Assembly (NCBI GenBank): GCA_030609775.1
Contig: JAUWTD010000003.1
Span: forward strand, 1-52,929
Length of the DNA: 52,929 nucleotides
Origin: Candidatus Altarchaeota archaeon
GTDB lineage: Archaea; Altiarchaeota; Altiarchaeia; IMC4; QMZM01
Direction of reading: 5' to 3'
The notes beneath the pieces were generated by a model that searched no databases, was not told where the DNA came from, and saw only the letters and a program-made list of their open reading frames with translations. Position numbers and translations under genes: made by a program. The first letter of the stretch is position 1; each line of letters starts with the position of its first letter. Of this stretch, positions 38,807 through 41,757 are shown one piece after another.

Positions 38807-38876
38807 TTAACCTTTAAGAAAGGTTAACCAAAGGACCTATTCTTAACCTTTAAGAAAGGTTAATCAAAGGACCCAT
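38807..38876. repeat. Two near-identical 34-bp direct repeats (period 36), each with an internal palindrome
   Basis: TTAACCTTTAAGAAAGGTTAAcCAAAGGACCtAT at 38807-38840 and TTAACCTTTAAGAAAGGTTAAtCAAAGGACCcAT at 38843-38876; TTAACCTT/AAGGTTAA-type dyad. Confidence 0.9.
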
Positions 38877-38886
38877 CATCGCTTGC

Positions 38887-38926
38887 GTTGCAAGCTCGAT
38901 AGGTCTGTTGCAAGCTCGATAGGTCT
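38887..38926. repeat. Perfect 20-bp tandem duplication
   Basis: GTTGCAAGCTCGATAGGTCT at 38887-38906 and 38907-38926. Confidence 0.95.
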
Positions 38927-39042: not shown

Positions 39043-39123
39043 GTAAGACACCTACTGTATTATCCCTTATATTTTATAAATATAGGGTTCCTATATTCTT
39101 ACAGTATTCTTCAGGGAATACTG
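39043..39123 (+). promoter_or_regulatory. Nested inverted repeats upstream of the RHH/QueDCE cluster
   Basis: CAGTATTC (39102-39109)/GAATACTG (39116-39123); TACTGTA (39053-39059)/TACAGTA (39100-39106); CCCTTATATT..AATATAGGG (39064-39087). Confidence 0.5.
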
Positions 39124-39135
39124 GGGGGATATTTT

Positions 39136-39312
39136 ATGCCTAAGGTTTGTGTTGAGGTTCCGCAGCATATTTTAGATGATTTAGGTAAACATATCGGGGA
39201 TGATAAAAAGTTTTTGAGTCTCTCTGATGCTGTTAGGACGGCGTGTCGGAAGATGCTGGATATGTTAGATGAGATAGATAAACGGCAGGGTCGGATGGAG
39301 GAAAAAATATGA
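39136..39312 (+). CDS. Ribbon-helix-helix (CopG/Arc-like) small regulator
   Basis: MPKVCVEVPQHILDDLGKHIGDDKKFLSLSDAVRTACRKMLDML; ATG 39136 preceded by GGGGGG. ORF-track N-terminus from 39034 looks non-coding. Confidence 0.7.
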   Translation: MPKVCVEVPQHILDDLGKHIGDDKKFLSLSDAVRTACRKMLDMLDEIDKRQGRMEEKI

Positions 39313-39647
39313 AGGTTGGAAGAATATTTTATTTTGATGCAGCGCATTATCTTACCGAGTATAAGGGAAAATGTGAGCGTCTGCATGGGCACACCTACAC
39401 GTTAGAGGTTGTTGTGGAGGACGAGCAGAAAGGGGATGGGATGGTTATTGATTTCAATGAATTAAAAAAGGTTGTTAATGAAGCAATCATCGACAAATTA
39501 GATCACAGCAACATGAATGATTTCTTTGATACACCTACATCCGAGAACATAGCTAAATGGATCTTTGATGAATTAAGTAATCGGTTGCGTATACATTCAG
39601 TTAAGCTTTGGGAAGGCAACGGTAAGTGGGTTAAAATAGAAAAATAA
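39309..39647 (+). CDS. queD: 6-pyruvoyl-/6-carboxy-tetrahydropterin synthase (QueD-like)
   Basis: FDAAHYL ... CERLHGHTYTLEVVVE ... LDHSNMND. Confidence 0.92.
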   Translation: MKVGRIFYFDAAHYLTEYKGKCERLHGHTYTLEVVVEDEQKGDGMVIDFNELKKVVNEAIIDKLDHSNMNDFFDTPTSENIAKWIFDELSNRLRIHSVKLWEGNGKWVKIEK

Positions 39648-39661
39648 GTAAAACGAGTGAA

Positions 39662-40345
39662 ATGAGTAAATCGGTTTGTCTTCTTTCGGGTGGAATGGAT
39701 TCTGCGGTTTCGTTAGCGATTGCGAAATCAGAGGGTTCACAGGTTTATCCTTTGACGTTCCGGTATGGTCAAAAGAATAGCCTGGAGTTAGATTGTGCTA
39801 AGGATCTGGTAAGACGTTTTGGAATCCGGGACCATAAAATCTTTGAGATAGATCTTAGACAGATAGGATGCTCGGCCTTAACCGATGACTTTGATGTTCC
39901 TGTCGATAAAAGCCTTGAAGAGATTACTGGTGGAAAAGAAATCCCTGTGACCTATGTTCCGGCGAGGAATACAATCTTTCTGTCGGTTGCATTAGGTTAT
40001 GCAGAGGTCATGGGTGCAGATAATATTTTTTTGGGGGTGAATCATCTTGACTCCAGCGGCTACCCTGATTGTAGGCCGGAATACATAAAACGGTTTCAGG
40101 CTCTCTGTGATGTGGCGACAAAAAAGACTGTTGAAGGCGAACCCATAAAAATCAGAGCCCCCCTCCTCTATATGACTAAAACAGATATCATCCGGAGGGG
40201 TATGGAGCTTGATGTTCCCTTTGAGTTAACCTGGAGTTGCTATGAATCAAAAGAGAAAGCGTGCGGTAGATGTGATTCATGTATTCTGAGGCTTGCGGGT
40301 TTTGAGGAAGCGGGTTTAAAGGATCCTATACTATATGAAAAATGA
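39662..40345 (+). CDS. queC: 7-cyano-7-deazaguanine synthase QueC
   Basis: CLLSGGMDSAVSLAIA PP-loop; zinc motif CGRCDSC. Confidence 0.95.
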   Translation: MSKSVCLLSGGMDSAVSLAIAKSEGSQVYPLTFRYGQKNSLELDCAKDLVRRFGIRDHKIFEIDLRQIGCSALTDDFDVPVDKSLEEITGGKEIPVTYVPARNTIFLSVALGYAEVMGADNIFLGVNHLDSSGYPDCRPEYIKRFQALCDVATKKTVEGEPIKIRAPLLYMTKTDIIRRGMELDVPFELTWSCYESKEKACGRCDSCILRLAGFEEAGLKDPILYEK

Positions 40346-40971
40346 GTTATAATAATTATGATTATAAGATTAATGAAATCTTTGATAGTGTGCAAGGTGA
40401 AGGCCTGTTAGTTGGGAAACCAATGAATTTTATTCGTTTCTGTGAATGCAACCTGTCTTGTAGCTGGTGTGACACCGACTTTGTGGAAGGGGAAGATAAA
40501 TCCATTGATGAAATCTTGGATGCATTAAATCGTAAATGGTCTTGGGTTTCTTTGACTGGCGGAGAACCGATGCTTGAGGAAAATCTTATGGATTTGATTG
40601 ATGTATTACATGAGAATTCATTCAAGGTTCTCTTGGAGACGAATGCAACCATCTATAACGAAGATGTACTGAATGTATCTGATTTTATTTCAGCGGATTT
40701 GAAACCTAAGTCCAGTGGAAATTCTTCTTGGGATTTGCAGGTTATGGAATATTGTTTCCAAAATCCCCAAAAAAGCCAACTGAAGGTTGTAATCCAAGAC
40801 GAAAGAGATTTAGAGTTTTTCTGTGGGATTTATCGGAAAGAGTATGTGAACTGGATTCTTCAACCTGAGTTTGGCTCCCTTAAGGAACTAGATTATGGGA
40901 AAATAATGGAATCAATATCTGGAAACGTACGAATTATTCCCCAGATTCATAAAATAATTGAGGTGAGGTAA
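40342..40971 (+). CDS. queE: 7-carboxy-7-deazaguanine synthase QueE
   Basis: EIFDSVQGEGLLVGKPMNFIRFCECNLSCSWCDTDF; radical SAM CxxxCxxC. Confidence 0.94.
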   Translation: MSYNNYDYKINEIFDSVQGEGLLVGKPMNFIRFCECNLSCSWCDTDFVEGEDKSIDEILDALNRKWSWVSLTGGEPMLEENLMDLIDVLHENSFKVLLETNATIYNEDVLNVSDFISADLKPKSSGNSSWDLQVMEYCFQNPQKSQLKVVIQDERDLEFFCGIYRKEYVNWILQPEFGSLKELDYGKIMESISGNVRIIPQIHKIIEVR

Positions 40972-41757
40972 TTGCAGGATAATAAACCTGATGTAAAGGA
41001 AAGCTTGGAAAGGGTTGGGGTGGCAGGACTTAAAACGATTGTCATGACTAACTGGAAGGGTAGGAGATACAATTTTGTACCTGAGATAGACTTAACCTTG
41101 GACCTAGACAAGGAACGAAAGGGGGTGCATATGAGTCGTCTTGTTGAATCTATAACTGAATGCATTGAATGTGAAGTAGTGATAAGGCATGGCTCCTTGG
41201 AGGCGGTGGAAAGAGACATTCTTGATATGTTGCGGAAGCGGCATCCCTTCAATAATGCAGAGATTTCTATGAAAACCGATATCGTGATACCCAAAAAGAC
41301 ACCTGTTACAGAAAAGACTACCATGGAGGCTTATGGTGTAGAGGTTAAGCTCATGTTAGATAAAGGGGAGTATAGGAAGAAATTGAAGGTTAGTGTCGTG
41401 GGGAATACTGTTTGTCCGCATGCGATGAATAATTGTGAGGGGAAAACACACGTTCAGAGGGCGGTAGGGATATTGGAGATAGAAACATCTTATGAAAACG
41501 AAATAGATTTAGAAGACATGGTCGACTGTGTGGAGGATGCTTTTCCTTCAAGGGTCTATACCTTACTAAAGTCAGAGGATGAAAAACACATCATCGAAAA
41601 GATGTTTAAGAATCCTAAATTCGTAGAAGATGTTACACGGGGGATATTAAACAACGCAAAAAAGAGATTCGGGAACGCAAAAGTTAGGGCAAAAACAATC
41701 TCGGAGGAATCAATCCACCGGCACAATGTTGTAGCAGAGGGTTCATGTGATGTATAG
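40972..41757 (+). CDS. GTP cyclohydrolase of the FolE2/MptA family (COG1469 type)
   Basis: DLDKERKGVHMSRLVESI; GNTVCPHAMNNCEGKTHVQRAVG; RHNVVAEGSC. TTG start directly after the queE stop. Confidence 0.9.
   Translation: MQDNKPDVKESLERVGVAGLKTIVMTNWKGRRYNFVPEIDLTLDLDKERKGVHMSRLVESITECIECEVVIRHGSLEAVERDILDMLRKRHPFNNAEISMKTDIVIPKKTPVTEKTTMEAYGVEVKLMLDKGEYRKKLKVSVVGNTVCPHAMNNCEGKTHVQRAVGILEIETSYENEIDLEDMVDCVEDAFPSRVYTLLKSEDEKHIIEKMFKNPKFVEDVTRGILNNAKKRFGNAKVRAKTISEESIHRHNVVAEGSCDV

Follow-up and report, generated by a model that had tools for sequence, protein, structure and literature searches.

What controls the supply of preQ0 in an altiarchaeal genome, and does an inverted repeat in front of the genes concerned act in RNA or in DNA? 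The question is raised by the window, the whole 52,929-nt stretch of DNA analysed (genome G000, 1.36 Mb, 74% complete), in which a 58-aa RHH-like regulator, the proposed repressor (39136..39312, + strand; orthologues 58-81% identical; weak CdrS, ORF56, and RHH_1 profile matches), is encoded ahead of queD (39309..39647, +; PF01242, TIGR03367), queC (39662..40345, +; PF06508, TIGR00364), the radical SAM gene queE (40342..40971, +), and a GTP cyclohydrolase of the FolE2/MptA type (40972..41757, +; PF02649). The assignment of queE is based on QueE profiles (E 1e-27 to 1e-26), which score below their NCBIfam cut-offs, and on Radical_SAM, which scores above its own. Judged by these profiles, queD-queC-queE-cyclohydrolase is an operon for preQ0 synthesis from GTP, and as an archaeal TGT is also encoded in the genome, the pathway probably ends in archaeosine, a signature modification of archaeal tRNA.

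The initial annotation had described mutually exclusive hairpins in front of this cluster, and all of the strings that it quoted are present in the letters of the window: the arms of a perfect 8-bp dyad (CAGTATTC at 39102 and GAATACTG at 39116) followed by GGGGGG at 39123 and the ATG at 39136, the alternative pairings TACTGTA (39053)/TACAGTA (39100) and GTAAGA (39043)/TCTTAC (39097), and a further dyad enclosed by them (CCCTTATATT at 39064 and AATATAGGG at 39079). Taken alone, the 8-bp dyad is unremarkable within the window, which holds 14 perfect 8-bp dyads (spacer 3-12 nt) versus 6-23 in ten shuffles. Such a dyad arose in 41 of 500 shuffles of the 340-nt intergenic region and is thus somewhat unusual there.

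Far beyond chance is a feature that the initial annotation did not mention, an array of four boxes in exact 11-bp steps at 39092-39133. The box is a 9-bp pseudopalindrome with the consensus AGTAWTACT, and the array is the best-scoring one of the 52.9-kb window, with a three-box score of 25.8 as compared to 12.0 for the next unrelated site. Scored with a matrix learned on Poseidoniales only, boxes 1 (TATATTCTT, 39092..39100) and 2 (AGTATTCTT, 39103..39111) lie on the + strand, and boxes 3 (GGGAATACT, 39114..39122) and 4 (GGGGATATT, 39125..39133) on the - strand. Box 2, the best conserved of the boxes among the nearest Altiarchaeota, forms the left half of the dyad and box 3 the right half; read in this way, the reported dyad is boxes 2 and 3 facing each other by happenstance. 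Box 4, which overlaps the ribosome-binding stretch, is weak in the window (3.5 bits) and strong in L038 (AGGAATATC, 9.6 bits). A TATA box is predicted at 39073..39080 (+; TTTATAAA), which would place the transcription start near 39100. Similarly, a TATA-like sequence lies 4-27 bp 5′ of the array in most Altiarchaeota and at most Methanosarcinaceae-like queC promoters, and the Poseidoniales array stops at a TATA-like sequence, approximately 27 nt short of the start codon. The orientation of the boxes varies among relatives (they are direct repeats in L040, AGAATACC-TGG, and in L162, AGAATACC-AGG) while the 11-bp phase stays constant, a pattern that fits protein bound along one DNA face and does not fit a stem.

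Several other features were observed near the locus and at the equivalent position in relatives. The intergenic sequence after the tRNA-Met gene of the window (38807-38926) contains two copies of a 34-nt sequence, TTAACCTTTAAGAAAGGTTAAcCAAAGGACCtAT, 36 nt apart, followed by a tandem pair of the 20-nt sequence GTTGCAAGCTCGATAGGTCT, identical in both copies. A tRNA-Met-like sequence with an apparent intron in the anticodon loop is found at L038:2382-2558 and in the same place in L032; the L038 sequence has a second insert near the T-arm, and ARAGORN does not call the sequence in either relative. In L034 and L038, the RHH gene and queD are separated by an insert with GCAAACACTTT and AAAGGGTTTGCTG at its two ends, after which the 3′ end of the RHH gene is repeated over ca. 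50 bp; the arrangement resembles the insertion of a small mobile element that left a long duplication of its target.

The array is not confined to the Altiarchaeota. When the regions upstream of RHH genes were matched against themselves, lag 11 was the dominant signal in 13 Altiarchaeota (z 6.3) and 61 Poseidoniales (z 14.1), and it was also present in six Asgard (Heimdall/Hod) regions (z 3.9). A box matrix trained on the 61 Poseidoniales promoters only and then applied to the other groups detected a three-box array in every one of the 13 Altiarchaeota (P<=0.007 for each), where the mean best score was 22.2 at a period of 11 and no higher than -2.3 at periods of 8-10 and 12-15. The tandem boxes of constant register that would be expected of an RHH operator in its target promoter were therefore found in the 11-bp register only. 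The three-box pattern occurs at a single locus, always the RHH promoter, in nine of 11 Poseidoniales genomes. Among 297 other archaeal genomes, it was seen in two, both RHH-positive, and in each case it lay at the queC promoter; this last count reflects specificity and not sensitivity, because the altiarchaeal arrays have diverged and escape the strict pattern. Asgard promoters have a different 11-bp repeat, AATCCTCCT, and since the Poseidoniales matrix is mostly not significant there, these repeats are suggestive at most. They could reflect an operator sequence that has diverged while its phase was kept. An Asgard 11-bp repeat of the form AATCCTCCTTC was seen upstream of the RHH gene in L048, L053, L064, L065, and L067.

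The RHH protein is unusually conserved: it is 68-81% identical in nine relatives, a level generally above that of QueD or QueC. A scan of GTDB genomes yielded 246 RHH relatives, the closest named ones of which are from Candidatus Altiarchaeota/Altiarchaeales MAGs; the best 80 of these 246 belong to Altiarchaeota, Poseidoniales/Thalassarchaea, and Heimdall/Hodarchaea, together with two records labelled bacterial. Both of the latter, L059 (a Phycisphaerae MAG) and L111 (a Neomarinimicrobiota record), contain RHH-que operons with the typical Poseidoniales gene order and are likely to be misbinned Poseidoniales contigs. In the set of 297 archaeal genomes, orthologues (E < 1e-28) were clear of generic RHH matches (E > 1e-6) and were also found in families f8, f33, f85, f89, and f104.

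Comparison of the gene neighbourhoods points to a common theme. The RHH gene is mostly upstream of queD-queC-queE-folE2 in Altiarchaeota, precedes folE-queE-queC-(msrB)-queD in Poseidoniales, and is upstream of que genes in f85, f8, and f104 too. In Asgard genomes, in one Altiarchaeon (L035), and in f89, the gene directly 3′ of it encodes a membrane protein of the Vut_1 family (PF02592; three were scanned, with E 1e-33 to 1e-36, and the others were identified by tblastn). To the same family belongs YhhQ, on which preQ0 uptake in E. coli depends (PMC5372724). What the RHH neighbourhoods appear to share is preQ0 supply, via either synthesis or uptake, and the fact that the Asgard Vut_1/YhhQ-like proteins occupy the place taken by the synthesis genes in other groups supports a role for them as preQ0 transporters.

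The tie between array and protein can also be followed where the two are apart. In the f33 genomes, which are Methanosarcinaceae-like (their gene content suggests Methanosarcinaceae) and 99% complete, the RHH gene is distant from the que genes, and four of these genomes have arrays directly 5′ of queC that score 38.2, 34.2, 24.4, and 36.2 bits with the Poseidoniales matrix. An array was present at 13 of 13 queC loci in RHH-positive genomes (12.9-38.2) versus none of 19 in RHH-negative genomes (<=4.4). Several of these 19 genomes are draft MAGs that are incomplete and share a family or order, and two of the loci, L009 and L018, have little upstream sequence. These loci are not phylogenetically independent; the contrast persists within f1, f5, and f33. 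G057, an f33 genome that is 99% complete, is among the 19; no RHH gene was detected in it, and its queC has no array. In f33, the RHH regulator would act in trans on the que genes. Its own promoter lacks an AGTAWTACT array there (L158, L160, L161, L164, and L165), thus indicating that self-control is not universal; the RHH promoter of L160 instead features the repeat TGATATTACAT(GCC), approximately 22 bp apart. No array accompanies arcTGT in the window's genome. The distribution of arrays makes the protein look like a dedicated, nearly single-target regulator. One further candidate site in this genome, L128, which comes nearest to a second dyad and has one mismatch, was dismissed as it falls inside a long coding frame resembling a glucan hydrolase.

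The assignment of the regulator to the RHH fold was approached with profiles and a structural model. Pfam RHH_1 matches seven of 41 members, with a best hit (E 0.0017, 18.6 bits) below the cut-off of 20.5, and ORF56 (2k9i) aligns weakly over residues 3-46 (E 0.096), a stretch that is also covered by the NikR and CdrS profiles. An AlphaFold2 monomer (pLDDT 80) has helices at 10-20 and 29-50 and an unstructured N-terminus where a strand is expected; the modelled helix pattern is as expected for an RHH protein. A Foldseek search with the monomer model returned no RHH match. The candidate would work like an RHH repressor, but by profile its place in the RHH family, whose beta-alpha-alpha fold forms an intertwined dimer, is weak.

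These data make it highly probable that a dedicated RHH repressor and a tandem operator control preQ0/archaeosine supply. A mechanism is proposed in which 39092-39133 is a tandem operator over the transcription start, with boxes one helical turn apart to which RHH dimers would bind side by side on one DNA face, blocking the core promoter. Bound RHH protein would repress its own gene as well as queD, queC, queE, and the GTP cyclohydrolase gene, and with them the synthesis of preQ0, from which the archaeosine of tRNA is made. The initial annotation had offered the dyad as the operator of the RHH protein; the operator is strongly supported, but as a four-box array with 11-bp steps in place of a single 8-bp dyad. 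Its broader proposal of an archaeal control element for preQ0/archaeosine synthesis is, in the form of this RHH operator, strongly supported by the array comparisons.

How the putative repressor would respond to preQ0 or archaeosine status is a separate matter. Where the RHH gene is linked, control could be achieved by protein level alone, via self-repression. The protein has no sensor domain, so the RHH domain would be the only place for a direct effector such as preQ0 to bind, as it is for S-adenosylmethionine in MetJ. Nine residues are invariant over 41 sequences (D15, H19, G21, R34, R38, K39, D42, D48, and R53); they lie outside the expected DNA-contact strand and would fit a ligand site. 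We tentatively suggest that this RHH protein of approximately 58 aa could sense preQ0 or another 7-deazaguanine as a co-repressor and control both synthesis and uptake in several archaeal phyla. If this is true, a preQ0-sensing RHH protein would do in archaea, as a protein, what the preQ1 riboswitch does in bacteria.

The direction of control is read from the position of the array only, and the same protein on the same DNA could activate the operon instead of repressing it, although we regard this as unlikely. Activation would suit the Poseidoniales, in which the boxes abut the TATA-like sequence or precede it; CdrS, a small RHH protein related to the candidate, binds mostly 41-110 nt 5′ of starts (PMC8406309). 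In Altiarchaeota and f33, however, the expected start, and in places also the ribosome-binding site, lies under the array, as is typical of repression. It is considerably less likely that the array is the operator of another regulator, such as an HTH protein of the TrmB/Lrp or another type, with the RHH gene as a mere passenger in the operon. RHH tandem operators in other families do have different spacing, but the array goes with the RHH gene from group to group, also where the two are unlinked, and G057, with no RHH gene detected, lacks the array at queC.

The third alternative is the attenuator or riboswitch of the initial annotation, in which the 39102-39123 stem and the upstream pairings would compete in a leader RNA, and preQ0 would act through them on translation or termination. 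The pairings do exist in the letters, the stem is present in the predicted fold (the leader region folds only slightly better than shuffles, z -2.1), and the preQ1 riboswitches of bacteria control similar genes. The upstream arms, however, are missing in all eight relatives that were checked, and in L032 and L038 the tRNA-like sequence ends, by inspection, approximately 20-35 nt 5′ of the array, leaving no space for them; in the window itself, a start near 39100 would place them outside the transcript. Covariation among relatives, the check that had been proposed, was absent from the dyad columns of 13 Altiarchaeota (66% of cells paired; two-sided changes no more frequent than the shuffled level), and an Rfam scan matched two tRNAs alone, with no riboswitch family at the leader. 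With direct-repeat boxes in L040 and L162 that do not form the stem and a Poseidoniales array that, at or upstream of the TATA-like sequence, would stay untranscribed, an RNA switch is very improbable and can be set aside.

In the open-licence literature, we found neither a described archaeal regulator of archaeosine precursor supply nor a prior report of an RHH-operator system for preQ0/archaeosine. The closest parallels to the proposed RHH repressor and its operator are MetJ, Arc, and CopG, with which it shares a small RHH-type protein (55-65 aa), near-palindromic boxes in register over a promoter, and targeting of its own operon. It differs from these in its archaeal host, in its target, preQ0 supply, in the very weak similarity of the candidate to solved RHH proteins, and in the period of the array, which is 11 bp here, whereas MetJ boxes are 8 bp. 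CdrS, an RHH protein that in haloarchaea regulates ftsZ2 and with it cell division (PMC7439475, PMC8406309), is likewise archaeal and approximately 60 aa in length, and its profile is the best match in NCBIfam (E 9e-5, reached by a Poseidoniales member). Membership of the CdrS family was nevertheless rejected, as the candidates score 17.9-22.4 bits against an NF058555 cut-off of 100 and neighbour que or Vut_1 genes, not ftsZ2. Our comparison yields a candidate regulator together with an operator code, AGTAWTACT per 11 bp, and their relation is testable in methanogens in which the RHH gene and its target are apart. Bacterial preQ1 riboswitches (classes I-III) exert analogous control over 7-deazaguanine synthesis and YhhQ-type transporters, but do so through an RNA element, whereas the archaeal candidate, which has no Rfam match, would combine a DNA operator with a protein.
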